34,665 nucleotides of DNA from a virus, in IMG/VR virus record IMGVR_UViG_3300031746_000089, positions 1-34,665 of that record, one strand, 5' to 3'. The notes under the pieces are model-generated. The model did not search any database and was not told the origin of the DNA. It saw only the letters and a list, made by a program, of their open reading frames with translations. Below, one piece after another: positions 12,337 through 34,665 of this stretch (its first letter is position 1; every line of letters starts with the position of its first letter). Position numbers and translations under genes: made by a program.

Positions 12337-12499
12337 TTGTCGCTAAATACCCGGCAGTAGTTACAATTATTGTAGGCAAAGATATTGGTGCAGTTGCAAT
12401 AACTCCTCCAATAACTCCTGCTAACAACATTGCATCTCCAAGTTTTTGAATAATCTTTGGAGTATTATTTTTTTGATAATTTTTTGGATGAAACTTCAT
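12278..12499 (-). CDS. Holin-like membrane protein
   Basis: A 73-residue protein with a basic N-terminus (MKFHPKNYQKNN) and two hydrophobic segments, GDAMLLAGVIGGVIATAPIS (about 21-40) and IIVTTAGYLATIGAIGKAIT (about 44-63). This size and two-helix form suit class II holins, and it lies directly upstream of the endolysin. It overlaps both neighbouring genes. Confidence 0.65.
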   Translation of the reverse strand: MKFHPKNYQKNNTPKIIQKLGDAMLLAGVIGGVIATAPISLPTIIVTTAGYLATIGAIGKAITKCFSADESEL

Positions 12500-12770
12500 T
12501 GTCTTTATTTATTAGTAAATCTATTTTAGTTTCTATTTTGGTTAAACGAATATCAAAGTCATTAAACTTTGGATATGTTTCTTTTTTGAATGCTTTGTAA
12601 TCTTTATAAACTGATACGACAAACCAAATCATAAATGTCATTAGTATTCCCCAAGTAATTTTCATAAGACCTGATGGTATTACATCAGATATTAATTCAA
12701 CTGATTGCAGAATAATAACTGATATGCTTAATCCTATCATCAAAATTGATTTTGCAAATAATGAAATCAT
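12465..12770 (-). CDS. Membrane protein with coiled-coil tail, possible holin or antiholin
   Basis: A 101-residue protein with two transmembrane segments (about residues 5-25 and 36-55) followed by a charged coiled coil (FDIRLTKIETKIDLLINK). It is a small membrane protein of the lysis cluster, perhaps a second holin or an antiholin; the coiled coil would face the cytoplasm or periplasm depending on topology. It is coupled upstream by a four-base overlap and overlaps the next holin-like gene by 35 bases. Confidence 0.6.
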   Translation of the reverse strand: MISLFAKSILMIGLSISVIILQSVELISDVIPSGLMKITWGILMTFMIWFVVSVYKDYKAFKKETYPKFNDFDIRLTKIETKIDLLINKDNEVSSKKLSKK

Positions 12771-13006
12771 AAAATTAAAGTTTCTAAATACGATGCCAAT
12801 TCATATGCAGATGCAAATGATGGTTCATATAGTTTAGTGTAATCTAATGCATATCTTCTTTCATTTGTACGAAGATAAACCCATTTGTTTTTTATTTCAA
12901 ATTCTTCGATGTTTACATCTTCTTTTAAAATATAATTACTGCTTCCATCATCATATGATAGAAGAATTGTTCCTGATGTATCAGAAATACCAACTATCAC
13001 GCACAA
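12767..13006 (-). CDS. Small conserved protein
   Basis: A 79-residue protein with several predicted strands (VIVGISDTSGTILLSYDDG, KWVYLRTNERRYALDYTKL) and a C-terminal helix. Similar small proteins occur next to tail or lysis genes in Bacteroidota phages, but I know no function. It starts inside the last codons of the upstream gene and overlaps the downstream membrane gene by four bases. Confidence 0.6.
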   Translation of the reverse strand: MCVIVGISDTSGTILLSYDDGSSNYILKEDVNIEEFEIKNKWVYLRTNERRYALDYTKLYEPSFASAYELASYLETLIL

Positions 13007-13320
13007 GTAGTTTTAAAGATTATGCAAGTATAAGTAATACTGCTAATCGTTAAGTTAACCCTTACTGATGACATTGGTAAAGTAAACCATATCTTAACTG
13101 GACCTGCCCATTTATTAAAGATAACATCACCATTAAATGTATACTTACCATCAATGGCAGTTGTTATTGCAAGTAAATAGGAGTTTCCAAATTTATCTGA
13201 TGCATACATATTGTAACTTGTGCTTGGAGTTAATCCGATGTCAAACACATATGGAATGACACCGGATAACTCTTTACACTTTTGACAAGATGCATTTATT
13301 TGTTCACACAATAAATTCAT
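12997..13320 (-). CDS. Cys-rich structural-type protein
   Basis: A 107-residue beta-rich protein. Its N-terminus holds three cysteines in CEQINASCQKC and its C-terminus has two more (TCIIFKTTCA). Alternating strands with Ser/Thr suggest an immunoglobulin-like or other virion-surface fold. It lies just after the tail-tube-like gene, so a tail or virion decoration role is possible. No family recognised. Confidence 0.55.
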   Translation of the reverse strand: MNLLCEQINASCQKCKELSGVIPYVFDIGLTPSTSYNMYASDKFGNSYLLAITTAIDGKYTFNGDVIFNKWAGPVKIWFTLPMSSVRVNLTISSITYTCIIFKTTCA

Positions 13321-13332
13321 TTACTTATAGAA

Positions 13333-13866
13333 TTAACAAGCAATACATCTATCAAATATTCCAACCGGCATATTAGTTGGACAAGGAACATCTTCTTGCG
13401 AAAACTTAATTGTAGTATTCCATAATACCTTTGATTTAATATCATCAGATATTGGTGCTTTTGGAATAATTAAAGCAACTGATGTAGAAAGATATACTTG
13501 TGTTTCCGTTCTATAACCTACTTTCCATTCACTTGATTTCTTGATAGAATTCCAAAATGAACAATTTCCAAGAAAGTTTGGATCAAATACATTCAATGTG
13601 AAATCATAACCTGACAAATCCATTGGAATGTCACCGAAACCAGTATCAGTAACTTCAGCCATATCAAGAGAACCTCTTGTTTTTGGAAGAACAAATACAT
13701 CTTTCGCACAAATTTTTGTTGCCCATTCAGTTGGATTAGTTATGTCCAAGAATGGACTGCTAACTTTTTGAAACCAAATTGAACGAATACCACCAAGTTC
13801 TTTTGGTGGACAATCGGAACAAGTTGGTGACAATACCGTTGAACACGATGGATAATATATTGGCAT
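13333..13866 (-). CDS. Tail tube (major tail) protein-like
   Basis: A 177-residue beta-rich protein located just after two neck or tail-completion-type genes, the usual place of the tail tube subunit. The text TKICAKDVFVLPKTRGSLDM and SLDMAEVTDTGFGDIPMDLS suggest strand-loop architecture. Its ends are Cys-rich (PTCSDCPP near the start, CIAC at the end). The assignment rests on size, beta pattern and gene order rather than on a signature, so confidence is moderate. Confidence 0.55.
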   Translation of the reverse strand: MPIYYPSCSTVLSPTCSDCPPKELGGIRSIWFQKVSSPFLDITNPTEWATKICAKDVFVLPKTRGSLDMAEVTDTGFGDIPMDLSGYDFTLNVFDPNFLGNCSFWNSIKKSSEWKVGYRTETQVYLSTSVALIIPKAPISDDIKSKVLWNTTIKFSQEDVPCPTNMPVGIFDRCIAC

Positions 13867-13913
13867 TTTATTTTGTTTTTTAAAATTAATTTAATGATGG
13901 CATTGCCCATACA

Positions 13914-14504
13914 TCAAACACAAATTGGGAAACATAATTTGTTGAACGATGTTATTATTTTATATTTTACTGAATAGAATATTGAATTAGTTTTTAATCC
14001 ATATTCATCCAAATTATATTCTTGTTTGAAAACTTCTTCCATATTAGTATTAACTGATTCTATATTAATGTTAACATCATATAGATTCAATGTTGATAAT
14101 ACTGATGATGGAATATATTGTGGAATGTTTATAAGCATATAAGCAATTAAATCAGTTCCGTGCATTTGAATTTTATTTCTATCTGAAATAACTATCATAA
14201 ACATTTCAGCAGTTTCCTGAATGTTGTTTCCGGCATCACCAAACAAATCAGCAGTTGTTGTTTGATATTCAGTTGAAATTAATCTATGATAAACTTGTAT
14301 TGGTAAAGTATCATCAATTACAACTGATGTTCCTTCTCCGTAGTTATCAATAATAGCAGGATAAGTTGTTCTTACATCACTATCAATAGATGGAACTAAT
14401 TCTGCAATACCATTATACCATTCACCACCTTGAAACTTTTCATTTGCTAATGATGTTTGCAAAGAAGAATTAATGTATGTGATTATTTCTTTTAATTTAG
14501 GCAT
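13914..14504 (-). CDS. Tail terminator / head-tail joining-like protein
   Basis: A 196-residue protein between the neck-type protein and the tail tube. The N-terminal helix (LKEIITYINSSLQTSL) followed by strands and a loop-rich centre is compatible with the tail terminator fold of siphoviruses. It overlaps the upstream gene by eight bases. The assignment is positional. Confidence 0.5.
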   Translation of the reverse strand: MPKLKEIITYINSSLQTSLANEKFQGGEWYNGIAELVPSIDSDVRTTYPAIIDNYGEGTSVVIDDTLPIQVYHRLISTEYQTTTADLFGDAGNNIQETAEMFMIVISDRNKIQMHGTDLIAYMLINIPQYIPSSVLSTLNLYDVNINIESVNTNMEEVFKQEYNLDEYGLKTNSIFYSVKYKIITSFNKLCFPICV

Positions 14505-15072
14505 TTAATATTTTATTAATATAATCTTCAAATATTTGTAATGCAAGTTTTTTATCTTCATCAGTAACTCCCCAAATTGTTTTATCAAAATGTTCTTCCT
14601 GATACTTACGCATATTATCACCATATTCAGATTTAAATCCGATGATATAATCTTTACCTGATGATTTGAATTGTAAATCCTTTCTTAACTTACCAGTTCT
14701 ATCAAGATTAACATTCTTTGTTTCTTTACCTTCGATGTTTCTTATCTCTTTGTAACCTCCTTTTAATACTGCTAATTTTCTTCCTTTAAAAGTTACCCAT
14801 TCAAGTTCTTTTCTTTTTTTCTTACTTCCAAAAACTTTATTAGCAGCACCTTTATTTACAAAAGATTTTGCACCTATTAAAATATCTTTAGTAGAATAAC
14901 TTCCTATTGATTGATTCTTTACATCCTTACCAGTATTGTGAATACGATAAGACATATTAGAATAAATTGTTGCAGCAATTTCCCTTATTACTTCATTTGG
15001 ATTTTCAATTTTCTTTGCTTCCAATTGAAATTGCTTTACTAATTCATCAATATTAGATTCGTATGTAGGCAT
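14497..15072 (-). CDS. Neck / tail completion protein (HK97 gp10-like)
   Basis: A 191-residue basic protein. The segment KSFVNKGAANKVFGSKKKRK, then KGRKLAVLKGGYKEIR and TGKLRKDLQF, is like phage virion morphogenesis proteins of the HK97 gp10 and Mu gpG type in Bacteroidota phages, which close the head-tail interface. Neighbouring genes encode capsid, connector and tail tube, which supports this. It overlaps the upstream gene by one base. Confidence 0.6.
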   Translation of the reverse strand: MPTYESNIDELVKQFQLEAKKIENPNEVIREIAATIYSNMSYRIHNTGKDVKNQSIGSYSTKDILIGAKSFVNKGAANKVFGSKKKRKELEWVTFKGRKLAVLKGGYKEIRNIEGKETKNVNLDRTGKLRKDLQFKSSGKDYIIGFKSEYGDNMRKYQEEHFDKTIWGVTDEDKKLALQIFEDYINKILNA

Positions 15073-16103
15073 TATAAAGAAACATTTTTATACATAATTG
15101 GCGAATCACATTCGATGCAACAATCATTTTGATTTAGATATAATCCGTAAACTGCATTCGTTAATTCTCCTGCAAATTTAACTTCAGAAACAACTCCTCC
15201 CATATATCTTGCTTCGAATTCTTTTCTCAATTCAGTTGCTCTTGCCTTATCAATAGTTGTCCATCTATTAATCCTTGAAGAATAAATTCTTTCAGTCATT
15301 AATTCAGCACCCAATAGATAAGCCCAAGAAGAAAGGAAATTTGATTTGTTGTTGCAAACCAAATTATCATAAGTACATTTAACACTAAAGATAGCAGATA
15401 AACCAAATGAATCTGATGTTTGATTTGCTCCTTTAATGCCGGTTACATATGCATTACAAGAATCCATATTGTAACATACACAATCACAAGATGCATCATA
15501 TCCATTAACATTATTAATGTCAAGAGAAACCGATGTAATCAATGTTGAATTGTATGTAATAGATAAATTTTTACTTGAATAATTCTTTCCAACATTAACT
15601 AAATTCCATCCTATAACTGATGTTACATTGAATGTATCTAAAGTTAAATTAGTATCTAAATCCTTTACAACTATTGCAACTGCATAGATAGCATTAGTAT
15701 AAAGATTTAAAGATTGTATATGTATAGATTGTAAATTACTTCCAAAGTTTGAAAGATGAATCTTTATTCCTCTGCTCTCATTAACTGGAGCAAATGTTGT
15801 TATTGCATCTATTATTTGACCAAGATTATTTGATTGAAAAATTTGTTTCAAAAGATATCCTGATGCAAGACCATTGTTTACAAAACGATTTTGCAATGAT
15901 GAATTAACATCATTTCTAAATCTTGCAATGGACCTATTCTGAATGTCTTCCCATACTTGAACGAATGATAGTTGGTCACTATCTGCGATTTGGTCAATCT
16001 GCTTCCATTCAACTCCGGGAAGAAAATCATTGATGTAAATTCCACTAATTGAAGTAGTATTTGTGCATCCTCTAATTCCGATATAATCTTTAAGACAATC
16101 CAA
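15072..16103 (-). CDS. Virion structural protein, connector region
   Basis: A 343-residue protein starting MDCLKDYIGIRGCTNTT. Proteins with the 'YIGI.GC' start, a GIYINDFLPG segment and Cys pairs (CDCVCYNMDSC, DCCIEC) occur after the major capsid gene in Bacteroidota siphoviruses and are taken to be structural. The central third is beta-rich. The exact position in the virion is unknown. It is separated from the capsid gene by a strong terminator hairpin. Confidence 0.6.
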   Translation of the reverse strand: MDCLKDYIGIRGCTNTTSISGIYINDFLPGVEWKQIDQIADSDQLSFVQVWEDIQNRSIARFRNDVNSSLQNRFVNNGLASGYLLKQIFQSNNLGQIIDAITTFAPVNESRGIKIHLSNFGSNLQSIHIQSLNLYTNAIYAVAIVVKDLDTNLTLDTFNVTSVIGWNLVNVGKNYSSKNLSITYNSTLITSVSLDINNVNGYDASCDCVCYNMDSCNAYVTGIKGANQTSDSFGLSAIFSVKCTYDNLVCNNKSNFLSSWAYLLGAELMTERIYSSRINRWTTIDKARATELRKEFEARYMGGVVSEVKFAGELTNAVYGLYLNQNDCCIECDSPIMYKNVSL

Positions 16104-20273: not shown

Positions 20274-22298
20274 TTAAATTGTAGTTTGTGTTATAATTGG
20301 TTTAGGATTACCAACAAGTTTCTTACCAGTTTCTTCATCGAATCCATATATCTCGTATAGCAATGTTATTGCTGCCAATGGATCAGTTATACCTTGAGAA
20401 ACTGACCTTTGAATTTCGAGAATTCCTTGAACACCACCAACCGTTCCTTTGAGATTTGCTTTTGCTTGTGCTTCAATATCCGTAACATCAGTTGCTTGAG
20501 GAATAGATGTAGTTGATGTTATACTAATTGGTTTAACTGATGGAGAAATTTCTTCTATCTTTTGTTTTGCAAATGCATAAAGAATATCAAGTTTTTCTTG
20601 TCTTGATAAATTTAAAAAATTAATATTTTCATCAATTGCCCTATCAATAAATGATACAATGTAATTACTTAATACAACATCTTCTTTACTTACTGATTTT
20701 GTTAAAAGTAAATCTGATTTTTCTTGTTCAGTTAAACTTGGCAAAGGATTACATTGTTTTGTTGTCACAATCTTATCTCTTAATTCAGGATTGTTGTAAA
20801 AATATTTTGATACTAAATCAATTTCTAACTGGTCAGTAATTAATGAATCAACATTAGCAGATTTTGCTGCTTGTATTTGTTGCATAACAACTCCTTCAGA
20901 AAAAATATCAAATCTTTGTGGAATATTTATTCTTGGCAACATTGAAATTCTATCATCGTAATTTGGAACAACAATTGAATATCTATATTCATTAATGAAG
21001 AAATAAACATCATTCAAAATATTTTCCACAATGTGATAGTAAACTGAATAAACAAAGTTGTTTGCTTCTTCTCTATCGTATTGTTTTGAAACACCCGATT
21101 GATTCAAAGAACCTACAATGTAATCCATTCCAATCGATGATAATGCATTCAGTATATGTGCTTGAATTCTTTCATCTTGTAACTTAACTATATCAGTTGG
21201 TTTAGTCAAGTAACCGGCAGGAGGAATAGGAACTGATGTTGGAGATAATGCAGAACTTTTTATTACAATATCTTTTTCAGGACTTCTTTTAAAGTTACCA
21301 TCACCTTTACAAGTTGGACATACAACACTTCCTTGAGGAGTAGGAACTTTTCCAATTCCTGAACAAGTATTACAATCCGTTCCATCAACTCTCCACATTG
21401 TTGAAAAAATGTTTTGAATTACTTCAGCATCTAAATCTGACATCTCTCTTGCTGCCTTATCTAAACCCGGCAACATCGATGCAATGAATGATTCGTATAA
21501 AACATAATCACCAAAATGATTTGAAACAAAACCTCCCATCTGCCAAGCAGGAAGATAACCAATATTGTGAACCATTTTAAGAATTAAATTAAAATTACTT
21601 CCATCTTCATTCTTTGTTCCAGTTTGTTCTGCTTCCCATATTTCAGTTGATGTAATGATGGTTAATACTTTTCCGTTTGAATATTTTCTTCCATTGGAAT
21701 AGTATATACATTTTCTATCTGATTCAAAAATAACATACTCATTAATTTTATAATCTAATATTTTTTTAGATTCAATAATGTATGTGTATGGTTTATAATA
21801 TTCAGTAGGTTCAATATCAAAGTTGATAGGCATTACAACTAATATTGCATTTGGATCAGTAAGTAATTTTTTAATACCAAATGAATACATCCAATTTTCA
21901 ACACTATTCCAAAACGGATAATTGTCATCAGTATATTCTTCTAATGTTTCTGATTCTTTTATTTGTGCAAATTCATTGGATTGTGACCAATCTATTTTCC
22001 AATCTTCAGAACGAATTCCTTTCTTTAAAATATTCAATACTTTAAAACAAGGAGTTTTATTTTCAGGAATATAATTATCTCTCCTCCATTGTTTATACCT
22101 TTCAGATTCACCCGGTCTCATTGTATCAATCAACCTTGTGAAGTATGGATTACCATCTACATTTTCTTCATTTGGTTTTTTGAAAAACCCATCAAAGTGA
22201 AATGAAACGTGATAATGTTCATCAACACTTTGCTTGTAGTATTCGTGTTTTTTTCCGTTGAAATACGGAACAACTAATGATTTGTCAACTATTATCAT
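20274..22298 (-). CDS. Portal protein with internal zinc-ribbon-like insert
   Basis: A 674-residue protein next to the Mu F-like gene. It has the portal layout: helical and mixed N-terminal body and a C-terminal GGVQGILEIQRSVSQGITDP segment followed by EIYGFDEETGKKLVG, typical of portal C-termini. At residues 309-334 lies an unusual pair CNTCSGIG ... CPTCKGDG, like the DnaJ zinc-finger repeat, with Cys309, 312, 327 and 330. The protein forms the ring through which DNA enters the head. The portal call rests on size, order and C-terminal pattern. Confidence 0.75.
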   Translation of the reverse strand: MIIVDKSLVVPYFNGKKHEYYKQSVDEHYHVSFHFDGFFKKPNEENVDGNPYFTRLIDTMRPGESERYKQWRRDNYIPENKTPCFKVLNILKKGIRSEDWKIDWSQSNEFAQIKESETLEEYTDDNYPFWNSVENWMYSFGIKKLLTDPNAILVVMPINFDIEPTEYYKPYTYIIESKKILDYKINEYVIFESDRKCIYYSNGRKYSNGKVLTIITSTEIWEAEQTGTKNEDGSNFNLILKMVHNIGYLPAWQMGGFVSNHFGDYVLYESFIASMLPGLDKAAREMSDLDAEVIQNIFSTMWRVDGTDCNTCSGIGKVPTPQGSVVCPTCKGDGNFKRSPEKDIVIKSSALSPTSVPIPPAGYLTKPTDIVKLQDERIQAHILNALSSIGMDYIVGSLNQSGVSKQYDREEANNFVYSVYYHIVENILNDVYFFINEYRYSIVVPNYDDRISMLPRINIPQRFDIFSEGVVMQQIQAAKSANVDSLITDQLEIDLVSKYFYNNPELRDKIVTTKQCNPLPSLTEQEKSDLLLTKSVSKEDVVLSNYIVSFIDRAIDENINFLNLSRQEKLDILYAFAKQKIEEISPSVKPISITSTTSIPQATDVTDIEAQAKANLKGTVGGVQGILEIQRSVSQGITDPLAAITLLYEIYGFDEETGKKLVGNPKPIITQTTI

Positions 22299-22303
22299 TG
22301 TAA

Positions 22304-23188
22304 TTAAATTATTGTCCTATCAGACATAAAATTTCTTTTGTCAACTAATGGAAACAATGTTTCCCCAATAAGATTCAAGTAATATTGTGCTAAATTATTA
22401 TAGAAATTTATCACATAATTTTCGTTTACTGCACCACCAAATGAACAAAGAAAATAGTTTTCGTACATTTGTTTTACTGGCAGATTTTGTTTGTTGAATG
22501 CTTCCCAATATGCCGGGAAGAATGATGATGTATGAGGATATAATTCTGATTGCATCATAGCAATAGTAAAAGATAATTCATCAGGTTGATTGTTTCCAAA
22601 TAGTTTATAAGGAACTTTTGGATAATCAAAATTCTTCTTTACTTTTTCAAAGAATGATTTATTTTCTTTTGTTTTTTTAAAGTATATAAATTCAGAAGAT
22701 AGATGAAAAAACATTTGCTTATCAAAACCATATATTTGTTTTATTAATTGTGGATCAGCCCATTCAATGAATCCTTTTTCTGCATCATCAATAGATAAAC
22801 TTCCTCTATTAGACATAGTGAAATTAACATCTTTTAATTCATCGAATAATGATTCAACATTTTTTTGTGGCAACCATAACATATCAGCATCAAGATATAA
22901 TGTAGTATCATATGGTGATAAATCATATATATGTGTTTTCAATTTGAAAACATCTCTAATGCCTAAAGATTTACTGATGTAGTTTTCAGGTTTTGCAGGA
23001 ATAATCAAATCAAATATCTTTAACTTATCATTTGTTAAATGAGTAATTCCATTACCTTCAACTATTAATGATATAGGAATATTATTACTATTTTCCTTAA
23101 TCGAAACTGCTAACTGATAGGCATAATTACCATAGTATGGATGCCCTGCTGCAATGAGAACTATTCCTTTTGATTCAGTTTTTTTCAT
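22304..23188 (-). CDS. Glycosyltransferase, GT-A fold (GT8-like)
   Basis: A 294-residue protein with an N-terminal Rossmann strand (IVLIAAGHPYYGNYAYQLAV), KLKTHIYDLSPYDTTLYLDA, and the metal-binding DxD in TLYLDADMLWLP near residues 96-107, followed by acceptor-side residues. This is the pattern of GT-A glycosyltransferases of the GT8 group. It is the last gene of a five-member cluster between tail genes and portal, and is followed after five bases by the portal. Substrates are unknown. Confidence 0.75.
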   Translation of the reverse strand: MKKTESKGIVLIAAGHPYYGNYAYQLAVSIKENSNNIPISLIVEGNGITHLTNDKLKIFDLIIPAKPENYISKSLGIRDVFKLKTHIYDLSPYDTTLYLDADMLWLPQKNVESLFDELKDVNFTMSNRGSLSIDDAEKGFIEWADPQLIKQIYGFDKQMFFHLSSEFIYFKKTKENKSFFEKVKKNFDYPKVPYKLFGNNQPDELSFTIAMMQSELYPHTSSFFPAYWEAFNKQNLPVKQMYENYFLCSFGGAVNENYVINFYNNLAQYYLNLIGETLFPLVDKRNFMSDRTII

Positions 23189-23193
23189 AGTTA

Positions 23194-23340
23194 TTATTTT
23201 TTCTTTCCTGCTTTTTTCAATGGACCAAAAGCAGATGACAAAGCCATTGCAACTGCTTGTTTTTGTGGATGACCTTTTTTTACTTCAGCAGAAATATTTG
23301 CTGAAATAGTTTTTTGTGAACTTCCTTTTTTTAATGGCAT
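23194..23340 (-). CDS. Small basic phage protein (DUF6496-like)
   Basis: A 48-residue frame starting [13 protein letters not shown] and containing [16 protein letters not shown], the pattern 'QKQAVAIALS.A' of a short basic protein found in many phages and often placed in DUF6496. Its composition and conserved helix suggest a nucleic-acid or virion-associated role, but no function is established. It lies between two glycosyltransferase genes, in a gap of 163 bases. Confidence 0.72.
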
Positions 23341-23351
23341 TTTTTTTAGTA

Positions 23352-23960
23352 TTAAATGTTTGAATCTGAATTTATAAAACCATATTTTGAATTATGATTT
23401 TCAAATTTGTATCTGTAAATATACAATTTTTTATCAATAAATGTTTCTGATTTTAACAATGGATAAATCCTTTTTGCAAAATCTGAATCTTCACCAAAAC
23501 GCAAATCAGCACAACCAACTTGCCTACATATTTCAGTTTTAATTGGAACTTTAAAGAATGGAGTACGAACATAATCATAAACTCCTACATTGTTCATCCA
23601 AGATTTATATCGTAAACTAATGCAAGATGTAGCCCTCTGATTCCAATCGAATACACAATCTTCAAGATAACCTATACAATCACTATCATCTTCACAAGCA
23701 GATAATACATCGTTACAATAGTTGTATGGTAACCAGTCATCATCATCTATCATTACAATATACTTTCCTTTTGCTTTTTTAATAAGCAAATCTCTTTTAG
23801 CACCAATACTAATTTCTTTGTTATCACATTCAAAAATCAATTCAACTTTCTTTGTTAACTTGTATTCTTTTATTTGATTTCGTATATGCTCATATAGTAA
23901 AGTAAATTGATTTCTTCTACTTGTAATAGTAGGAATTGCTATTGTTAAAATTGGATTCAT
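23352..23960 (-). CDS. Glycosyltransferase family 2-like
   Basis: A 202-residue protein with the GT2 pattern: [18 protein letters not shown] at the start, [20 protein letters not shown] with the metal-binding DDDD at about residues 72-75, and [15 protein letters not shown] later, which supplies the catalytic acidic residues ('ED..'). It probably transfers a sugar from a nucleotide donor to a growing glycan or protein. It overlaps the upstream gene by four bases. Confidence 0.8.
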
Positions 23961-24673
23961 ATTAATGAGTATAAGTTGTTGATTAATGTTTCATTTTCTT
24001 TAAATGGAACTGGAAGATGTGCATCGTAATAGATACCATTTTTAACATCATCATTGAAGTATATCCAACTTAATCTATCTATTCTTCTATTAGCAATTCC
24101 ATCTTGACTAAATACTCTTGTAAGATGTATTACTTTATGATATGAATCTAAAATAGTTTTCATATACTTTTGATCCGTTGTCCATTGGTCTTCACAAATA
24201 TATAATAAATTCTCAACAAATGACTGCCAAGAATTAAATTTAATTAGTTGTAAAAATGTTTCTGCATTCGCTGAAATATAACACATCGGATATGTTCCAT
24301 CAAATTTTTCTGCTGCATCTGATGAATAAGAAACTATTGTTTCATCATCATATATAGATGCAATATCTTGAAAGTAATTCTTGTTCAATGGCATCATATC
24401 GATGTCGGAAAATATAAACTTACCTGACAAGTATTTAGTTGCCCATATCCTTCCAATTTGTGCTTGTAATGATGTCTTAATACCTTTCAATTCAGGCAAT
24501 GTAATCTTCATTGTATCATCTTTTAAATTGATTATTGTATCATCACCATTAATGTGAACTAATACTGGAGTTATTCCCATTTTAATCCAAGCATTTGAAA
24601 TGATATTCCAATAGTCAAGATAATGAGAATTATCTGCTGATACAATTGCATACTTGATTACATTCCCTGACAT
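23957..24673 (-). CDS. Glycosyltransferase-like protein (GT-A, DxD)
   Basis: A 238-residue protein starting MSGNVIKYAIVSADNSHYLD. It has the GT-A features IGRIWATKYLSGKFIFSDID with DxD in FSDIDMMPLN at about residues 89-98, and a later EDQWTTDQKYM segment. The nucleotide-sugar-binding core is visible, but the family (GT8 or relative) is not certain. It overlaps both neighbours in the cluster. Confidence 0.72.
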   Translation of the reverse strand: MSGNVIKYAIVSADNSHYLDYWNIISNAWIKMGITPVLVHINGDDTIINLKDDTMKITLPELKGIKTSLQAQIGRIWATKYLSGKFIFSDIDMMPLNKNYFQDIASIYDDETIVSYSSDAAEKFDGTYPMCYISANAETFLQLIKFNSWQSFVENLLYICEDQWTTDQKYMKTILDSYHKVIHLTRVFSQDGIANRRIDRLSWIYFNDDVKNGIYYDAHLPVPFKENETLINNLYSLI

Positions 24674-25314
24674 ACAAATATTGTTTTTTTATGTTCTGCT
24701 CCTTTGTAAGATAGAAAAGTATTCAATTCAGGAATCTTATAACCCAACTTATAAAGTATTATTGATGCTACTGATTGGTCTTGTCTATGATGAAAAAATC
24801 TTGAATCAGAACTTTGATTGTTATGTTCTCTGCTTCCATTGAATATTCCATCAATTGATGCCTGAACAAATTGATTTATAAATGATTTTCCGATGTCAGT
24901 TGTTATATCAAATCCAAGCATTCCGGAAGAACACATTGGAATGTTTTCTGCTTCATCTCTTGTTACATCAAAGTATTTTAAACAAGCATCAGAACATTCT
25001 TGTGCTGCATTATATCCATTTGTTTCAACATATATACCATCTTTCTTAATCTTATCAAATATTGCTTTAGGATTCTTTATTGCCATCAATGAACAATCTG
25101 CCCAAAGAATAGTTTTAAATCCATCTGATATTACTTCTTTCATTGCAGCAGTTTTAATTGTATATCTGCAATCATCATTATAATATTTATTTATAGCAAC
25201 ATTTCTAAATGTAATTAGATTATACCATTCTTGTTCAAACAAAGTATCTCTTAATCTTGTTGATCCTTTATCATACCAACCATCACCAATATATGCGTTA
25301 ACAATTGTTTCCAT
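24658..25314 (-). CDS. Glycosyltransferase-like protein
   Basis: A 218-residue protein with ILWADCSLMAIKNP in the place of the metal motif (ADCS, a variant of DxD) and HHRQDQSVASIILYKLG near the C-terminus, the 'H..D...' helix found in related phage and bacterial sugar transferases. It may have changed metal use. It is coupled to its neighbours by short overlaps, so the cluster is one operon. Confidence 0.65.
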   Translation of the reverse strand: METIVNAYIGDGWYDKGSTRLRDTLFEQEWYNLITFRNVAINKYYNDDCRYTIKTAAMKEVISDGFKTILWADCSLMAIKNPKAIFDKIKKDGIYVETNGYNAAQECSDACLKYFDVTRDEAENIPMCSSGMLGFDITTDIGKSFINQFVQASIDGIFNGSREHNNQSSDSRFFHHRQDQSVASIILYKLGYKIPELNTFLSYKGAEHKKTIFVCQGM

Positions 25315-25994
25315 TACAATCCAAATCTTTTTTCTTTTCTTCTTACATAATTTGCTTTATCAATATGAAAAAACATTTGCGTTTTTTTCATCAATTCATC
25401 AGGTTGAATATTAGGAGTATTTGAAAAATGAATATGTCTAAAAATTACTTTATCAATGAATTTAATTTTGTTCAATAATAAACCAACTTCAGTATATTCG
25501 TTATCTGACCATAAAGATATATATGATGGATGATATAGATATCCAAATCTATTATAGTATTTCTTACCCATTATATTCATAGTACACAAACCATTCTTCT
25601 TTGTGTTAACATCACCATCCCAAAACCAAAGACAACCATCAGTATCAGGAAAGTAATCAGTCATATTGTTTCTTATGTCTTCATCCCATCCTTCTACTTG
25701 ACAAATCATATCATCAGATGCTAATACAATTATATCCCATTTTTTATTGTATGTTTCGATTCCACGATTACAAGCGTGAATCTTATTCGCTGAATGACCT
25801 GATAATAAAGTTATATTCTTTGATAAAGATTTTATTGTTGCAATAACTTCTTCATTCATTGTAACATCATCATTATCGTAAGTAACAAGATAATTTATCT
25901 TACTTGGATTAGATGATAGTTCAATATAACTCTTTAGAACTTCAATGAATTTAATTGGTCTACTTCGTGTAGGAAATTTTACTAAAATTTTCAT
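25314..25994 (-). CDS. Glycosyltransferase family 2-like
   Basis: A 226-residue protein starting MKILVKFPTRSRPIKFIEVL, with a GT2-type core: YLVTYDNDDV, and IIVLASDDMICQVEGWDEDI, where the DD near residues 93-94 is the metal motif, then further acidic residues (YFPDTDGCLWFWDGD). It opens the glycosyltransferase cluster directly after the tail genes and overlaps the next by one base. Confidence 0.7.
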   Translation of the reverse strand: MKILVKFPTRSRPIKFIEVLKSYIELSSNPSKINYLVTYDNDDVTMNEEVIATIKSLSKNITLLSGHSANKIHACNRGIETYNKKWDIIVLASDDMICQVEGWDEDIRNNMTDYFPDTDGCLWFWDGDVNTKKNGLCTMNIMGKKYYNRFGYLYHPSYISLWSDNEYTEVGLLLNKIKFIDKVIFRHIHFSNTPNIQPDELMKKTQMFFHIDKANYVRRKEKRFGL

Positions 25995-26003
25995 ATTATT
26001 TTT

Positions 26004-27557
26004 TTAACAATTACAATTAGGTTTACCAGTTTCATTTCCAAAACAAGTAGCAGCACCAACACCACATATTTTATTTTCAACTAACTGAATTTTTTCAGAA
26101 ACTTTAATAGTTGATATTGCTTCTATATCGTTTCTTGATGGATAAGATACATTATATTCATCATCATCAATAAAGTATTCAACATTATCAATATATATGT
26201 GGTCATAACCACCAAGAGTAGAAATAAAATCGTGAACATATTCAGCAACTGCCGGTTCAATTCTTAACTCTCTTGATTTCCTTGATTTAAAATGAATAGT
26301 TTTTTTATTTCCCAATGAATCTTGAAATGAATCTCTTTCATTTTTATAACTTCCTCTAACAAGTTTTGAAATTAAACGCATACTAAAAGAGAATGATGGA
26401 TTTGCAAAACTAAAACCTAAACCATTCTTGTCATTACAAGCAACAATTCTATGTGAACAATCAAATGTTCCTAAACGAAACATATTACTGCAACAATCAC
26501 ATATAACTGCTGATGCACATACTGCTAAATTAATATCTCGTATATATAATTCGTGAATGTTTTCATCATTATGTGTTGACTGAATTTCAAAAACAAAGTT
26601 AACTCCAGTTTGTGCATTGTGCTGAAATGTATATGTTCCAACTGATGATATCCATCCACTAACATTTCCTCCGTGTTTAACTCTGAATCTTGTAGAATTT
26701 ATTTCTCCTGCAAAAACTTTATAAGATAAATCGTAACATAAACCATCAATAAGATTTGCATTATTCATTGTAACCGTAGCAGCACCTGAATTACTATTTG
26801 ATGTGTAATGAATAACATCATTAATAGCAGTACAAGTAGCAGATGATACTGGACCTACTGAATATCCATTGGTTAGATTTAATATGTTTTGATTGTTTGT
26901 GTTAACACAAGGATCAGCAAGACAAATGTAATAGCATCCATCAGGTAAATTATATTGAACCCAATTTATATTCAAAGACATTTTATTATCTTCAATAGAA
27001 ATATTTTTATCTATTTCAGTTATGAAATTACCATCACTATCTTTGATTATAAATCTATAATTAGTAGGTAATAAACATCCTGATGGAAGACCATCATTTG
27101 ATAATGAATTATTGAAAACTAAAGTATCATTACCAGTCATAGGAGTAAATGATAATGTAGCCATTGATGATACAAGGAAAGTAAATGTATATGTTCCCGG
27201 AGAATTTAATGTTGCAACAATTGATGCATCATTTCTAAATTCGAATGAACCTGATAATGATGTAATAAAAAATGATATAGTTATCCATTCAGGATCAACA
27301 TTTGTTAAAAGAACTTCCCAACTACCACCACCACCACCACTTCCATCATATACATAATTTGATGACCATCCAGTTCCAATAGTTATATTTCCTTCATTAA
27401 CTACATTTGTGCAGTCAGGACAAGGACCAATTTCAAATTGAACAAATTGATTATCTTCATTTTTATTTACAACTTGAACATATTTTGCCGAAGGAGATGC
27501 ACAAGTATCAGTATCATTTAAGAATGATATTGGTTGATTATTTATATTTTTTATCAT
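26004..27557 (-). CDS. Tail protein with beta-sandwich, possible receptor binding
   Basis: A 517-residue protein. It has a Gly-rich linker (YDGSGGGGGS, about residues 70-79), beta-rich repeats with Ser/Asn (AATVTMNNANLIDGLCYDLS) like carbohydrate-binding jelly-roll domains, Cys pairs (CPDC, CDCC, and CNC at the end), and a C-terminal segment FSFSMRLISKLVRGSYKNER that recurs in tail fibre-like proteins of Bacteroidota phages. It follows the other tail gene by overlap. A tail-tip or receptor-binding role is inferred. Confidence 0.6.
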   Translation of the reverse strand: MIKNINNQPISFLNDTDTCASPSAKYVQVVNKNEDNQFVQFEIGPCPDCTNVVNEGNITIGTGWSSNYVYDGSGGGGGSWEVLLTNVDPEWITISFFITSLSGSFEFRNDASIVATLNSPGTYTFTFLVSSMATLSFTPMTGNDTLVFNNSLSNDGLPSGCLLPTNYRFIIKDSDGNFITEIDKNISIEDNKMSLNINWVQYNLPDGCYYICLADPCVNTNNQNILNLTNGYSVGPVSSATCTAINDVIHYTSNSNSGAATVTMNNANLIDGLCYDLSYKVFAGEINSTRFRVKHGGNVSGWISSVGTYTFQHNAQTGVNFVFEIQSTHNDENIHELYIRDINLAVCASAVICDCCSNMFRLGTFDCSHRIVACNDKNGLGFSFANPSFSFSMRLISKLVRGSYKNERDSFQDSLGNKKTIHFKSRKSRELRIEPAVAEYVHDFISTLGGYDHIYIDNVEYFIDDDEYNVSYPSRNDIEAISTIKVSEKIQLVENKICGVGAATCFGNETGKPNCNC

Positions 27558-29665
27558 TGATTTGTATTATTAATATTTGAAACTAATTCAATTGTAGCCA
27601 TACCATTTTCAGCATTTCTTTCAATTAAATTAATCCATCCTCTTTTTGTTGCATTGTCAATGCCAAAATTAATTGATTGTTTTGGATTACTTTTAATGTT
27701 AATCCAATCAGTTTCATTTATTGGAAATTCATATTTAAATAAAGAAACTTTATATGCATCAACATTTTTTCCTTGATAAATACCACCACCATCTGATGTA
27801 GTTGTACATTCAAATTCTGAACCTGATTGTAAAGTATAACTATTAACTCCAAATTCTTGATTGTATACTGAACCAGTTGGAACTGAAATACCCGGATAAT
27901 ATCTTTCTTGATATAAATCGTAATATGCAAATTCTAATTGTATCTGACATTGTTCAGATGCATTCATATATAAATCAATATATACATCATCTTCTAAATT
28001 CATATATACATCCTTATCAAAACTACTTCCAATAGGATTAACATAAGTAAATAAATATTGATTAGCAATATTTAAAGATGAATCAGTAAATGATTTTGTT
28101 AAAGTAGTTTGAAAATTACTTCTCTTTAATGTTGCACCACTATAAGCATTTGCAGTTATTCGCCATTTATCAAATGCAGCAAATGTTGATGTTGATAAAC
28201 CACCTTGATCCACTTGTTGTAAAAATTTTCTTTTAAACTTTACTCTAAAAGTATATATACCATTTGCTTGAGCAGTATATCGATATGTTGCAGTATTATA
28301 ATTTGCATTTGCATCGTAGTTCGGAGGAGTTGAATCATCAGGAAATGCATATGGATTAAATGGAGTTTGTAATATATATGATGGTGATAATGTAACCGTT
28401 GTTTGAAATGGCATAGTCATCGTACTTGATGCCATAAATCTATTGTCAGTTGCATTTAAATATTGTGCTATATTACCTTGAACATCCCATCTATTAGATA
28501 CATTAGCATTTGTTAAAATCTTATTATAGAATACTGGAGTAGCAGATGTATTATCATTCCAAGCAACTGCTTCATTATTAACTATAATTCCATTTGGAAT
28601 TGTATATTGAATTAAAAATATATCTTTATCGTATGAAGTATTAGTTGTATTTGTAAATAATAATTCTTCAATAACATTTGAATCAATAATAAATCCTGAT
28701 GACAAATCAAGTTCTCTATCAATGTTACATTGTCCTTGAATGATATAACTTTCTTCTTCAAATGCAAGAAATCTTATAGGAGGAAATGAATGAATAGATG
28801 GATCATAATCTGCTGATTTACTACTTCCAACTTTTACTTTAGAATATAGATTTGCAGTATTAAATGATTCCACTAAATCAGGTATGTATTCAGTTGTAAG
28901 AACATTTGTTGTATCATAGAAAAATGACATTGGTTCAATTCTCATTGTCCAAGTTCCTGCAATGTTTTCAATTGAAAAACCAATATTGAATTTCTTATTT
29001 AATTCTTCAAATAATTGTTGAAACGATACTTCAGGAACATCAGTATTAGTATGATTACCTAAACGCAATTCCATTCCTTTTATAATGCAAATTCTTTCAT
29101 CAGGAAGTAAAGTTGAATACCAATTAGAAACAACATTCATTCTTCCATCAGTCATAAATTGCACAAGATAATTCATTGCATCCATAATATCGAATGCAGT
29201 TAATTGTCTTGCATAAATAGTTGCAGTTGCAGGTTCAAAAATACTTAACTGCAAATTAATTGATGGAGTTATTGCAACTTGATTCTTTGAATATCCTGAA
29301 TTCACAAATGTTTTAATGCTTTTGTTGTTAAATATTCTTGCACCAAATGAATCATCTTCAATGTTGCATTCAACTAAACAATTATTTAAATGAAATGTAC
29401 AATCTGAAATCCTTATATTACCTTCAAATAATAATGAATCAACACTATTGCATAACTTATAAATCTTTAAAGTTACAAAGTTGCAATATCCATTTGAATT
29501 CTTTGTATTATAAAGATATGCATATGCATCATCAGTAAAATTAAGTTTAGTATTTATTTTAATTAATAAACCACGAATAACATCATTTCGTTCTATTGTT
29601 TCAGAAAATTCATCCCAGTTAATTGGATTGTTTACAAGATTATTATCTAAATAAAATTTGAACAT
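27554..29665 (-). CDS. Tail-associated protein (distal tail or tail-tip type)
   Basis: A 703-residue beta-rich protein directly downstream of the tape measure gene, where distal tail and tail-associated proteins usually lie. The N-terminal part (MFKFYLDNNLVNNPINWDEF, then IRGLLIKINTKLNFTDDAYA) resembles the distal-tail-type start seen in Bacteroidota phages, and the central part is made of strands with many Asn and Tyr residues. It overlaps both neighbours by one to four bases. Confidence 0.65.
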   Translation of the reverse strand: MFKFYLDNNLVNNPINWDEFSETIERNDVIRGLLIKINTKLNFTDDAYAYLYNTKNSNGYCNFVTLKIYKLCNSVDSLLFEGNIRISDCTFHLNNCLVECNIEDDSFGARIFNNKSIKTFVNSGYSKNQVAITPSINLQLSIFEPATATIYARQLTAFDIMDAMNYLVQFMTDGRMNVVSNWYSTLLPDERICIIKGMELRLGNHTNTDVPEVSFQQLFEELNKKFNIGFSIENIAGTWTMRIEPMSFFYDTTNVLTTEYIPDLVESFNTANLYSKVKVGSSKSADYDPSIHSFPPIRFLAFEEESYIIQGQCNIDRELDLSSGFIIDSNVIEELLFTNTTNTSYDKDIFLIQYTIPNGIIVNNEAVAWNDNTSATPVFYNKILTNANVSNRWDVQGNIAQYLNATDNRFMASSTMTMPFQTTVTLSPSYILQTPFNPYAFPDDSTPPNYDANANYNTATYRYTAQANGIYTFRVKFKRKFLQQVDQGGLSTSTFAAFDKWRITANAYSGATLKRSNFQTTLTKSFTDSSLNIANQYLFTYVNPIGSSFDKDVYMNLEDDVYIDLYMNASEQCQIQLEFAYYDLYQERYYPGISVPTGSVYNQEFGVNSYTLQSGSEFECTTTSDGGGIYQGKNVDAYKVSLFKYEFPINETDWINIKSNPKQSINFGIDNATKRGWINLIERNAENGMATIELVSNINNTNQ

Positions 29666-31881
29666 TAGAATTTATAATTAGAGTTTGAATTTGTTGCAAT
29701 CTTTTTTAGCAATTTATTTTGCTCAATAAATATCTTACGATTAATTCTATCGGATTCAAGAAGATTAGTATCATTGAATAGTGAATTAAGTTGAATTGCT
29801 TTTGCTATTTTACTTGAAAATTCATCAGCATCAATTCCTTTTCTATTTGATTTTAATGCCGGAATAACATAACGATGATTTATGTAATCATCAAGATTTC
29901 CTTTTATCCAAGCATTAGACATACCCGGATATTTTGCATTCTTATCCGTTGGAATAATTGCTTCTCCTTCGTTTGCCATAATTGGAATTGTATCAATACC
30001 TGATTTGTTTCTTCCTCTCTTTAAAAAGTCAGTTCCTTTTGCAAATTGTGGAATTGGAGTTGATGCTGCAATTGCAAATTCAGCAACTCCCATTGCACCA
30101 ACAATAGCAGACATAATTAAACCGGCAGGACCCGGAAAGTCAAGAATTGCTTTCATTATACCTTGAGCAGTAGTTAATACGATGTTATACATTGCAAGTT
30201 CTTTATCAACTTCTGCTGCATCTCTCTTTGCTTTCTTTACTCTTGCATCATATTCTTTTTGCGTAATCGTTTTGTTTGTTAACTGGTTATTCAAAGTTGT
30301 TAACTCATAATTTAAATATGCATCGTTAATTGTCTTGATACCATCAGTCATAGTATTCGCAATTGCAAATGCTTCTTCAGCAGATAATTCTCTTTCAACC
30401 GTTAATGTTTTCAAAGTTTCTGATTGATTTTTTGCAATTGCAGTTTGTGCTTCAATAGATGTATCTTTTCCTGCTTGAATTAATTGTTCATCTTCTTCTT
30501 TAGTAGTTAATTTTTTTTCAGTTAAAGTATTTAGATGTGTTTGCAAATCTTCTTCAATCTTTTTATTTGCATTTTTTGTTGATTCTGCTTGTGAATCTAT
30601 TGCTTTAATTGTTGGATCAATAGCATTCTTTAATAATCTTTGAGCATCAGTTATTCTTGTTGTTACATCTTCGTATTCTTGTAATGTTTTATTATTTAAA
30701 GTTCCTGATATTGATTGAAGTTCTAATTCTTTTTTTAATTCACCTTGTTTTTTAATCAACAATTCTAATTCATTAAGAATCTTTGTTGGCTTTCCATCTT
30801 CAACACCAAGATTATTTTTTGCATCTTTAGGATGTTCAAGGTCATCCAATGATTTCTTTAACTTCTCTAATTCTTCTCTTAACTTTGGTATTGGTCCACC
30901 AACACCTGCATTTTCAAGAGTTCTAATTTGCATTTCTTTTTGTGCAATAGAAAACTTTGTCATTGAAATCCCTGCTGCCTTAACTACTTCATCCGTACTT
31001 TTAATTGAATTAGCAAATTCATCAGCAGGAGATTTTCCTGAAATCATTGCTTTTATTGTTTCATTAAAATAATGTGGTAAGTCAGTAAATACTGATATTA
31101 ATGATTCTGCTGAATCTAAAAGAAAACCACCAACTGACTCTTTGAAATCATCCCAAGCATTTGCAAGAATTTTCATCTTACCTGAAGATGTTTCTGCAAT
31201 AACTCCTGCTTGTCCGGTAAACTTATTTAATTTTTCAGTTATGATTGCTAAATTTTCTGCTTTATCTCCAGTATCTTTAAATTCTAAACCTAATGGTTTT
31301 AATCCTCTTGTAAGACCATTTACACCTTGAATGACCGTATCAGTTGCAGAACCTAAATCAGTTCCCGTAGCAGATGCTAAATCAATTATTTTAGGAATTA
31401 ATTTTTCTACTTGATCCGAGTTTAAACCGAATTGAACCAATTGTGTTTGCGCCCTTTGAATATCATCATCTGAAAAAATAGTTATTCCCTGAAGAATCTC
31501 TGATTGGTCAATTAACTTTTGATAGGCATCAACTCCTTCTCCACCAATTAATTTAACTGCTGATAATAATTTGTTTGCATTTAATTCTGCTTCTTGAAAT
31601 GCAGCAATAGATTCTTTTCCGAATGCAATTACTGATTCAATTGCAAATGCTGCTGCAATACCTTTACCCAAATCAAGAAGTTGACCTTTAATATCAGTAA
31701 TACCTTTGAAAGTTTCCTTTAAAGTATTTGTATTTTCTTTATTACCTTTTTGAAATTTCTTGTTGTTATCTTCAAATTGTTTTGCATTTTCATCATCAAT
31801 CTTTCCAAGTTTCTTGAGTTCTTCACCTAATGCAACTACATCTTTTGAATCTCCTTTAATCCGGAGTATAATATCAGGCAT
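29665..31881 (-). CDS. Tape measure protein
   Basis: A 738-residue protein starting MPDIILRIKGDSKDV. The form is that of a siphovirus tape measure: long helical and coiled-coil segments (EELKKLGKIDDENAKQFE), a hydrophobic segment near residues 590-620 (LIMSAIVGAMGVAEFAIA) and a Gly-rich C-terminal part (FAKGTDFLKRGRNKSGIDTI, then MANEGEAIIP). At about 0.15 nm per residue the tail would be about 110 nm long. It follows the tail assembly chaperone frames, the standard order. Confidence 0.88.
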   Translation of the reverse strand: MPDIILRIKGDSKDVVALGEELKKLGKIDDENAKQFEDNNKKFQKGNKENTNTLKETFKGITDIKGQLLDLGKGIAAAFAIESVIAFGKESIAAFQEAELNANKLLSAVKLIGGEGVDAYQKLIDQSEILQGITIFSDDDIQRAQTQLVQFGLNSDQVEKLIPKIIDLASATGTDLGSATDTVIQGVNGLTRGLKPLGLEFKDTGDKAENLAIITEKLNKFTGQAGVIAETSSGKMKILANAWDDFKESVGGFLLDSAESLISVFTDLPHYFNETIKAMISGKSPADEFANSIKSTDEVVKAAGISMTKFSIAQKEMQIRTLENAGVGGPIPKLREELEKLKKSLDDLEHPKDAKNNLGVEDGKPTKILNELELLIKKQGELKKELELQSISGTLNNKTLQEYEDVTTRITDAQRLLKNAIDPTIKAIDSQAESTKNANKKIEEDLQTHLNTLTEKKLTTKEEDEQLIQAGKDTSIEAQTAIAKNQSETLKTLTVERELSAEEAFAIANTMTDGIKTINDAYLNYELTTLNNQLTNKTITQKEYDARVKKAKRDAAEVDKELAMYNIVLTTAQGIMKAILDFPGPAGLIMSAIVGAMGVAEFAIAASTPIPQFAKGTDFLKRGRNKSGIDTIPIMANEGEAIIPTDKNAKYPGMSNAWIKGNLDDYINHRYVIPALKSNRKGIDADEFSSKIAKAIQLNSLFNDTNLLESDRINRKIFIEQNKLLKKIATNSNSNYKF

Positions 31882-31924: not shown

Positions 31925-32221
31925 TTAATCTTCATCAATCATTACATTATGCTTATTTGCTGATAGTATATTATCTTCAATCAGTAAGTAATATTCATAT
32001 GTTGACAATTGATATAATTCTTTCAACTTTAAGTTGTTATTGTTTGCGATTTTAGAATGTTGTAAAAATCTTTGCTCTTGTCTTTCACGGATAGATGAGA
32101 TATAATTGTTGTTAATTGTTCGCTTGTCATCACTTCCATTGTTTTCAAATAAAGATTTAAATCTTTCTTGGATAAATCTATTGATGGCATTAAACTCTTG
32201 ATTGGCTTTGACAAAAAAAAA
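31925..32221 (-). CDS. Tail assembly chaperone, -1 frameshift extension
   Basis: This frame is open for 98 sense codons between a TGA directly before the slippery tract and a TAA at 31925. It has no ATG until its last few codons. It encodes a coherent, mostly helical protein (FVKANQEFNAINRFIQERFK, then LKLKELYQLSTYEYYLLIED). It lies in the -1 frame relative to the gene starting at 32682, directly before the tape measure. This is the signature of the 'T' part of a G/GT tail assembly chaperone. A -1 shift at the T tract gives a product of about 252 residues. Confidence 0.75.
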   Translation of the reverse strand, partial: FFFVKANQEFNAINRFIQERFKSLFENNGSDDKRTINNNYISSIRERQEQRFLQHSKIANNNNLKLKELYQLSTYEYYLLIEDNILSANKHNVMIDED

Positions 32222-32682
32222 TCAATGCCGGGAGCAGATATTTCATTCGTTCCTTTAATAACTAATGGATGTTCATCCCACATTGCCATCTTTTCAGTTC
32301 CATATTTAAAGTCATATGAATACGGATTTTCACTTTCATCAAAATAAATTACTGATGCTAACTTCTTTATTATTTCAGGTTCAAAAATATAATCCAATCG
32401 TTCTTTACTATTCTGAACAATCTTCATTACTTCGAATATATCTATTTCGGTTTTGCGTAGAATATTTTCAATAGCAGTAAATGCACCTTGAAGATATTCT
32501 CTTGTACATCTCATCTCAAGTTCTTCATAATAAGATAATGCGTGAAATGCCCTACCACAAGGAATACTGCTACTATCATCAAACTTAAAAAAATCAATAT
32601 CGTTACAAGTGAAACTATATACAACACGATGTTCAGGTTGAATTTTACCATTGAAGTTAATTTTTTTTGACATATGGTCCAT
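32029..32682 (-). CDS. Tail assembly chaperone (G form)
   Basis: A 217-residue protein when read without frameshifting, starting MDHMSKKINFNGKIQPEHRV. It is mainly helical (YYEELEMRCTREYLQGAFTA) and lies two frames upstream of the tape measure, the usual place of the lambda gpG-type chaperone that keeps the tape measure soluble during tail assembly. At codons 155-157 the gene holds a run of nine T on the coding strand. A -1 slip there leads to the longer form described at 31925-32221. Identification is by position and frameshift architecture. Confidence 0.72.
   Translation of the reverse strand: MDHMSKKINFNGKIQPEHRVVYSFTCNDIDFFKFDDSSSIPCGRAFHALSYYEELEMRCTREYLQGAFTAIENILRKTEIDIFEVMKIVQNSKERLDYIFEPEIIKKLASVIYFDESENPYSYDFKYGTEKMAMWDEHPLVIKGTNEISAPGIDFFLSKPIKSLMPSIDLSKKDLNLYLKTMEVMTSEQLTTIISHLSVKDKSKDFYNILKSQTITT
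32213..32221 (-). other. Slippery site for programmed -1 frameshift
   Basis: Nine consecutive T on the coding strand, read GAT TTT TTT TTG in the zero frame, contain the heptamer T TTT TTT of the X XXY YYZ type. A -1 slip of the two TTT codons leads straight into the 98-codon open frame. A TGA stop in the -1 frame lies directly upstream. Confidence 0.72.
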
Positions 32683-33446: not shown

Positions 33447-33521
33447 TACATTTGTGATGTTGTTGTTTTTAATCGTTGTTACCTGAATGGGAGGAGTTAA
33501 ATCTCTTCCCATTTTTTTTTT
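33447..33521 (+). ncRNA. Candidate plus-strand small RNA with terminator
   Basis: TACATTTG at 33447-33454 matches the Bacteroidota -7 box on the plus strand, though a -33 element is unclear. It is followed by about 30 bases of T/G-rich sequence and then a Rho-independent terminator. No plus-strand gene lies near. The predicted RNA (about 33461-33520) would be around 60 bases. Its 5' part (TGTTGTTGTTTTTAA, 33458-33472) is complementary over 12 bases to the leader of the ATPase gene at 2828-2839, but that leader is low in complexity, so pairing may be chance. Confidence 0.45.
33487..33521 (+). terminator. Rho-independent terminator on the plus strand
   Basis: ATGGGAGGAG at 33487-33496, a six-base loop, CTCTTCCCAT at 33503-33512 (one G-U pair in RNA), then nine T at 33513-33521. 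The T tract ends in the terminase stop codon. On the minus strand the same stem has one A-C mismatch and no T tract follows, so it does not look like a terminator for the terminase gene. Confidence 0.75.
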
Positions 33522-34665
33522 AGATATTAAATGATTTGATAAAATCTTTGTGAAATGTTGCCAAATCGTATCTCATACAATCAAGTAAATCGGCTTTGCG
33601 ATTATCATTGGACCTATCCTTCTTGATGTCACCATTACCATCAACTTCAACATATTTCAAATCTTTAATCAGATATGGACATTCAATTGTATCAATGATG
33701 ATGTTATAGTTTTGCAACATTGAATTTAGCAGAACTCTTGTATCAGCAACTGATGGATTAACCGTTCCTTGCTTAAATTGACCATCACCTAACTTTAATT
33801 CGTATTTGATTACTGAATAGTAATTCATATTACCTTTAGTTAATGCTGAACGATTCCTGCCAGTAGCATCACCGGTTACCATAAATATTGCATTAGGAAA
33901 CTTTGCTTTGATATGCTGACATATCTCATAGATATCTGAATTCTCTATTCTGAATTCTTTAATAAAGTATTTAAATGAATTATAGTTTTGCGATGCAGTA
34001 CAAGTTATCGGATCCACATTGAAATCGAATGACAATGTTACAACATAGTTTGAATTATAAGATGCAGTTCCAATGTGTTTGTTTTCATCAAATGCATATG
34101 CAAAGGAGTTTCGAGTTAAATCAATATCTTCAGCAAGTATCTCGCATCTAAAAGATAATTCATCCATTGTTCTTTTGATGATATCAATATCTTCTTTAGC
34201 AATAGTTGGATTCTGATATGTTGAAAGATTGAATGATGACCAATCGTTTTCTTTTTTTCCTTGATTGAATAATCTTTTAAAATATGTATCACCGAATTTA
34301 GGAGTTGAAAGAATCCAAGCATCACCTGAATAATCAATTAGAGTAGGTAAGATGGTGTTTTGCCAAGCATCTTTAAACTTACTTGCTTTCTCTGCTTCAT
34401 CCACTATAACTCTCTTATACTTGCGACCACGACCACTATCAGGATTATCCATAGACCAAAAATCAATTACTCCTCCAGTAATTAATCGCATCTGCTTTTG
34501 TTGTTCGTTTTTTTCTTTGATGATAGGATTTAATATCATCTTCAATTCGTGCCATACATCGTGTAAATCACCATATGTTGGAGCAAAGTATGCAACAGGA
34601 TGACCATCTAATGCAGGTTGAGGAATCAATTCGTGTACTGCTAAAGTTGTCTTTCCCCATCTCCT
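33520..34665 (-). CDS. terL: Large terminase subunit, main part (continues at 156 and upstream)
   Basis: This is the C-terminal 330 codons plus the duplicated segment of the packaging motor. Walker B is RVIVDEAE (about residues 116-123 of the joined protein), with the catalytic Glu after the Asp. The nuclease domain starts near VVTLSFDFNVDPI, with GDATGRNRSA and the final KADLLDCMRYDLATF also visible. These match the RNase H-like fold that cuts concatemeric DNA. The full protein, about 412 residues, is obtained only by joining with the N-terminal part at 1-249. Confidence 0.92.
   Translation of the reverse strand, partial: RRWGKTTLAVHELIPQPALDGHPVAYFAPTYGDLHDVWHELKMILNPIIKEKNEQQKQMRLITGGVIDFWSMDNPDSGRGRKYKRVIVDEAEKASKFKDAWQNTILPTLIDYSGDAWILSTPKFGDTYFKRLFNQGKKENDWSSFNLSTYQNPTIAKEDIDIIKRTMDELSFRCEILAEDIDLTRNSFAYAFDENKHIGTASYNSNYVVTLSFDFNVDPITCTASQNYNSFKYFIKEFRIENSDIYEICQHIKAKFPNAIFMVTGDATGRNRSALTKGNMNYYSVIKYELKLGDGQFKQGTVNPSVADTRVLLNSMLQNYNIIIDTIECPYLIKDLKYVEVDGNGDIKKDRSNDNRKADLLDCMRYDLATFHKDFIKSFNI
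34510..34665. repeat. Terminal direct repeat, right copy
   Basis: The same 156 bases as 1-156 with two synonymous differences in the terminase frame. Position 34510 corresponds to position 1. Confidence 0.93.

Follow-up and report, generated by a model that had tools for sequence, protein, structure and literature searches.

Probable -1 frameshifting at a conserved U_UUU_UUU site in a putative lambda G/GT-type tail assembly chaperone of an undescribed phage group

The slip site of the phage lambda tail assembly chaperone gene is G_GGA_AAG. Its products gpG and gpGT (Xu et al. 2004; reviewed in PMC5009743) are a short protein and a -1 fusion encoded directly before the tape measure gene, and the locus described here shares with them this position, the predicted pair of products and the -1 direction of the shift. 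It differs from lambda in its slip site, U_UUU_UUU, in a zero frame that runs on for 63 codons past this site and is itself conserved, and in that no sequence or fold similarity to chaperones was detected in the libraries searched. The original prediction, according to which frameshifting occurs at exactly the place used by many siphoviruses, needs a qualification here, as the 63-codon continuation and the conservation of both frames set the site somewhat apart from the usual one. A U-rich heptamer is also present in gene 17.5 of SPP1, where a putative -1 shift at UUUUUUC would give the products 17.5 and 17.5*, an analogue of lambda G/GT (PMC6316719). The SPP1 site, however, ends in C and holds no pure U run, its host is Gram-positive, and no relationship between 17.5 and the present gene emerged from the searches done. 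To call the T heptamer unusual, as had been done, was fair, although SPP1 17.5 provides a precedent. Transcriptional slippage at nine identical bases, which would have the same protein outcome, is known from 9A/9T runs in bacteria (PMC1088944) and from Shigella mxiE (PMC5009743), whereas relatives of the present gene shorten the run to T7, T8 or T6A while the ribosomal heptamer stays. This kind of frameshift has been known since lambda, and the locus is most suitably classed as an undescribed family of the lambda G/GT kind. Its novelty lies in the family as such, in a homopolymer site that is fixed yet varies naturally in length, and in a long overlap that is dual-coded. A literature search conducted mostly outside subscription papers brought up no phage group described as fixed on U_UUU_UUU, the nearest site being the UUUUUUC of SPP1.

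The window, meaning the whole stretch of DNA that was analysed, is the IMG/VR record IMGVR_UViG_3300031746_000089 (34,665 bases, 29% GC). Positions 1-153 and 34510-34662 form a terminal repeat of 153 bp with one mismatch, and because both ends repeat in this way the record probably represents a genome that is circular or circularly permuted, with its terminase gene cut in two by the record ends. The portal protein (20274-22298; PHROG 7376, E 1e-22) contains at residues ~307-336 a CXXCXGXG zinc-finger-like stretch with a faint likeness to the DnaJ central domain, and the region between the portal and tail genes (22304-25994) holds several ORFs that appear glycosyltransferase-like, judged by reading alone. 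Scans of the window for Rfam families and tRNAs gave no match. The weak matches of the tape measure and portal proteins fell mostly on Flavobacterium phages, and a Shine-Dalgarno-like start was present in only 4 of 51 genes, which together suggest that the host probably belongs to the Bacteroidota.

A check of the coordinates (Table 1) bore out the geometry that had been claimed for the locus: nine T read as T TTT TTT in the zero frame (32213-32221), a -1 frame of 98 codons opening right after a TGA (32224-32222), and an end of that frame (stop at 31925) 43 bases ahead of the tape measure ATG at 31881. The claim that the -1 frame has no usable ATG also proved correct, and in the window neither ATG, GTG nor TTG occurs in this frame 5' of the tract, nor does any start codon lie close to where the frame opens. 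The computed lengths of 217 aa for the zero frame and 252 aa for the fusion after a single -1 slip agreed with the sizes that had been given (217 and about 252 residues).

Table 1. Coordinates of the chaperone locus and its anchoring genes in the window
Feature	Position	Strand	Remarks
Tape measure protein gene	29665..31881	-	738 aa; PHROG and tblastn matches
-1 frame (GT extension)	31925..32221	-	98 codons + TAA (31927-31925)
Part read in the -1 frame alone	31925..32031	-	~34 codons; pN/pS
Dual-coded overlap (zero-frame C-terminal tail over -1 extension)	32029..32212	-	Depressed synonymous variation
Zero-frame ORF, putative gpG-like tail assembly chaperone	32029..32682	-	217 aa, stop in coordinates
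Second, overlapping in-phase heptamer T_TTT_TTG	32212..32218	-	Sequence
T9 tract	32213..32221	-	Zero frame GAT TTT TTT TTG; begins at codon position 3
Slippery heptamer T_TTT_TTT (U_UUU_UUU)	32215..32221	-	In-phase; conserved across relatives
TGA closing the -1 frame directly 5' of the tract	32222..32224	-	Sequence
Terminase large subunit	33520..34665	-	Runs past window end; anchor for finding relatives

The gene is probably a lambda G/GT-type tail assembly chaperone with ribosomal -1 slippage at U_UUU_UUU, and the frameshift interpretation of the original prediction is supported by the conservation of the heptamer and the -1 frame, by selection, and by the adjoining tape measure gene. In the proposed scheme, most ribosomes would stay in the zero frame and produce the short chaperone, while a minority would slip one base back at U_UUU_UUU, with two Phe tRNAs re-pairing, and read on in the -1 frame to give the fusion. 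If lambda serves as a guide, the tape measure protein would be coated by the short form, and tail tube subunits would be brought in by the -1 domain of the long form, which would be rare. Production of the fusion is very likely on the comparative evidence below, and the slippage is likely to be mainly ribosomal; the ratio of short to long product and the chaperone role are what we infer from position and architecture.

The occurrence of the tract was compared with chance expectation. Two coding-strand runs of at least seven T were present in the 51 predicted genes, both within the chaperone gene, and a single run of at least eight, the T9 tract. In-phase T_TTT_TTT was expected 5.3 times from synonymous shuffles versus 2 seen, and T9 on both strands, including non-coding DNA, was seen 6 times versus 10.9 expected. 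As T9 is thus not rare in the window at 29% GC, weight rests on its phase, on the open -1 frame and on the conservation of that frame. When the zero-frame protein was held fixed and codons were drawn by the window's codon usage, none of 5000 random synonymous versions had a -1 frame that stayed open through the 61-codon overlap, and the open -1 frame is hence unexplained by the zero-frame protein. The other run of seven T in the gene is a second in-phase T_TTT_TTT (32587..32593, minus strand); it was rejected as a slip site, being absent from the close relatives L001 and L004 and followed by a -1 frame that stops after two codons.

Relatives were collected by terminase-based and then chaperone-based searches. 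The zero-frame ORF is kept in distant relatives as well as in the phage contigs L001 and L004, whose chaperones are 71% and 66% identical to that of the window and which retain T9 and both frames, at 65-66% identity in the -1 frame and 62-68% in the zero-frame tail. Loss of the -1 frame in related phages had been named as the result that would count against frameshifting; all 76 contigs with a complete tract (34 clusters at 90% amino acid identity, 19 at 70%) kept an in-phase heptamer followed by the -1 frame, the heptamer being T_TTT_TTT in 75 and T_TTT_TTA in one. The run was T9 in 33 contigs, T7 in 41, T8 in one (L018) and T6A in one (L099), whose U_UUU_UUA is the heptamer used by HIV-1 (PMC4373837). 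T9 was present in 16 of the 19 clusters at 70% identity, and exactly T7, in phase, in a clade of 41 contigs. The second, overlapping heptamer occurred in most T9 members and in none with T7 or T8. Of the relatives found by protein similarity, three ended short of the slip site and all others carry the in-phase heptamer and then a -1 frame, which spans ~85-130 codons where complete. L016-L027, L085 and L088 came from a scan of the neighbours of terminase and tape measure genes for T7; because T7 was partly the search criterion, they do not attest the site independently, although their -1 products are alignable. Past the site, the zero-frame tail measures 27-71 codons across relatives and is conserved inside groups, poorly between groups. 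The terminase relatives L030-L084 showed no comparable site ahead of the tape measure gene, and no relatives of the chaperone were found among GenBank phages, nor of the chaperone and terminase in ~85,000 bacterial and archaeal genomes.

Purifying selection on the -1 frame, likewise named beforehand as a test, was observed. In the part read in the -1 frame alone, pN/pS was 0.35 for the window against L001, 0.18 against L004, and 0.13-0.58 over all 19 pairs. Within the overlap, pS fell below the outside value in both frames for most pairs, as expected if both frames are read, so that the same bases constrain both C-termini. The zero-frame tail past the tract gave a pN/pS of 0.33-0.49 in the window's group.

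The same fusion would result if RNA polymerase added a U at T9 in some transcripts, which were then translated normally. This explanation, which we regard as unlikely, draws on the dominance of T9 in divergent lineages (the 16 of 19 clusters above), on the slippage-prone nature of 9A/9T runs and their avoidance in many bacterial genomes (PMC1088944), on the lack of coding-strand runs of at least seven T in the other genes of the genome, and on the failure to find a conserved RNA stimulator. That the T9 of most lineages exceeds what the heptamer needs likewise counts against a ribosomal reading, as does the fact that U_UUU_UUU shifts far less readily in E. coli than A_AAA_AAG does (PMC5009743). 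However, the run length varies while the heptamer stays, which favours ribosomal slippage: the T7 clade, the T6A member and the T8 member each have a conserved -1 frame, and a conserved homopolymer of 8-9 or more was found in the window and the other T9 members but not family-wide. As transcriptional slippage is often seen at runs of 8 or more (PMC3711429), the 41-contig T7 clade counts for the ribosome. So does the shift direction, -1 in every member, since ribosomal cases are reported to conserve their direction and transcriptional ones need not do so (PMC3711429). In L085 the tract begins at another codon position yet holds the in-phase heptamer, a point against polymerase slippage that is true of any T9.

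The T7 clade, L018 and L099 fall apart on the tree, and the run length seems to have changed several times, each time with the heptamer retained; the deep branches of this tree are poorly supported, and it does not fix the direction of change. T9 members could use both ribosomal and transcriptional slippage. A stronger version, in which T9 members including the window make the long form mainly by RNA polymerase slippage or by transcription and translation together while the T7 clade is purely ribosomal, is unlikely; if true, one family would have crossed from one recoding mechanism to another without changing its site. The natural T6A, T7, T8 and T9 variants could serve to separate ribosomal from transcriptional slippage.

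For the favoured ribosomal slippage, stimulatory elements were sought around the site. No downstream RNA stimulator conserved across members was found: z values for downstream structure were -0.2 to +0.8 in the window, and the T7-clade alignment folded at -0.79 kcal/mol with no covarying pair. Downstream hairpins were present in L134 (z -4.4) and L102 (z -2.75). No conserved motif resembling an internal Shine-Dalgarno stimulator was seen upstream of the slip site. A pure-U site lacking a conserved stimulator, in genes that hardly use Shine-Dalgarno starts, makes a useful test case.

The assignment as a chaperone rests on position and architecture, since searches of Pfam, PHROG and PDB sequences gave no match to a known chaperone family, no GenBank phage relative was found and no fold match was obtained. 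The AlphaFold model (pLDDT 84.8) has beta strands at the N-terminus and helices after; Foldseek returned nothing below E 0.1 with it, two chaperone-annotated entries in the viral top 10 being weak (E 0.6-0.7), and a structure search with the -1 domain likewise gave no match below E 0.1. Similarity to a known chaperone family is usual but not required, as G/GT-type ORFs share low sequence similarity (PMC5009743). The tape measure gene itself matches PHROG tail length tape measure families (E down to 1.8e-5) and the gp18 tape measure of Gordonia phage Malibo (E 1e-7, tblastn). The chaperone gene lies directly upstream of it in the window, and in most relatives checked the tape measure is the next ORF; the downstream gene matched named tape measure PHROGs in 8 of 9 loci tested. 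The distance to the next long ORF is a few hundred bases in L007, L104, L107, L108, L128, L134 and L135, and ~1 kb in L018 and L161. That recoding does occur here, but in a gene other than a tail assembly chaperone, as the lack of profile or fold similarity would allow, is improbable given the gene's place right before the tape measure in many divergent phages and its short/long design, both of which point to a G/GT chaperone. The known range of the G/GT frameshift would thereby come to include an undescribed phage group that is large, probably infects Bacteroidota and was left unrecognised by profile and GenBank searches, and the comparison offers a route to finding the tail chaperones of such a group.

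It is very improbable that the -1 frame is an independent gene with an internal start and no fusion, for although L001 and L004 carry an ATG in this frame 18 nt 5' of the tract, from which separate initiation may occur in these two, and L018 one at 27 nt, these starts are unconserved while the heptamer is conserved, and in the window, L007 and L013 a -1 stop directly before the tract leaves no room for a start. A sequencing or assembly indel in the homopolymer, the true gene being a single unbroken ORF, has a negligible chance of being correct and is already largely refuted: homopolymers are error-prone and the relatives are all metagenome contigs, but 76 contigs from many metagenomes, with runs of T6A, T7, T8 and T9, all show the two frames in an identical relation, and the zero-frame tail is conserved in its own right, as its pN/pS indicates.

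Similar arrangements were noticed in other phages. In Nonlabens phage P12024S (NC_018271; L165), gp38 (23136-23830), just after the terminase, holds an in-phase TTTTTTT at 23579 and a -1 frame of 83 codons, the end of which has its own annotation, gp39; a frameshift pair, gp38-gp39, may thus have gone unrecognised in a flavobacterial phage that is in culture. By profile comparison gp38 showed no significant homology to the window's chaperone family, and the pair remains a lead. Flavobacterium phage FPSV-S1 (L092) has the classic heptamer A_AAA_AAG at 26305, late in the gene that precedes its annotated tape measure. A 63-codon -1 frame follows, and the arrangement resembles a tail chaperone frameshift of the ordinary sort that lacks annotation. 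In L014, a phage contig with a related terminase, no chaperone-type gene was found within reach; this contig carries a 921-aa ORF (12464-15229, plus strand) that appears by eye to resemble a Cas9-family nuclease, with an HNH-like NIDHIVPKSKL, and is followed by a helicase-like ORF.
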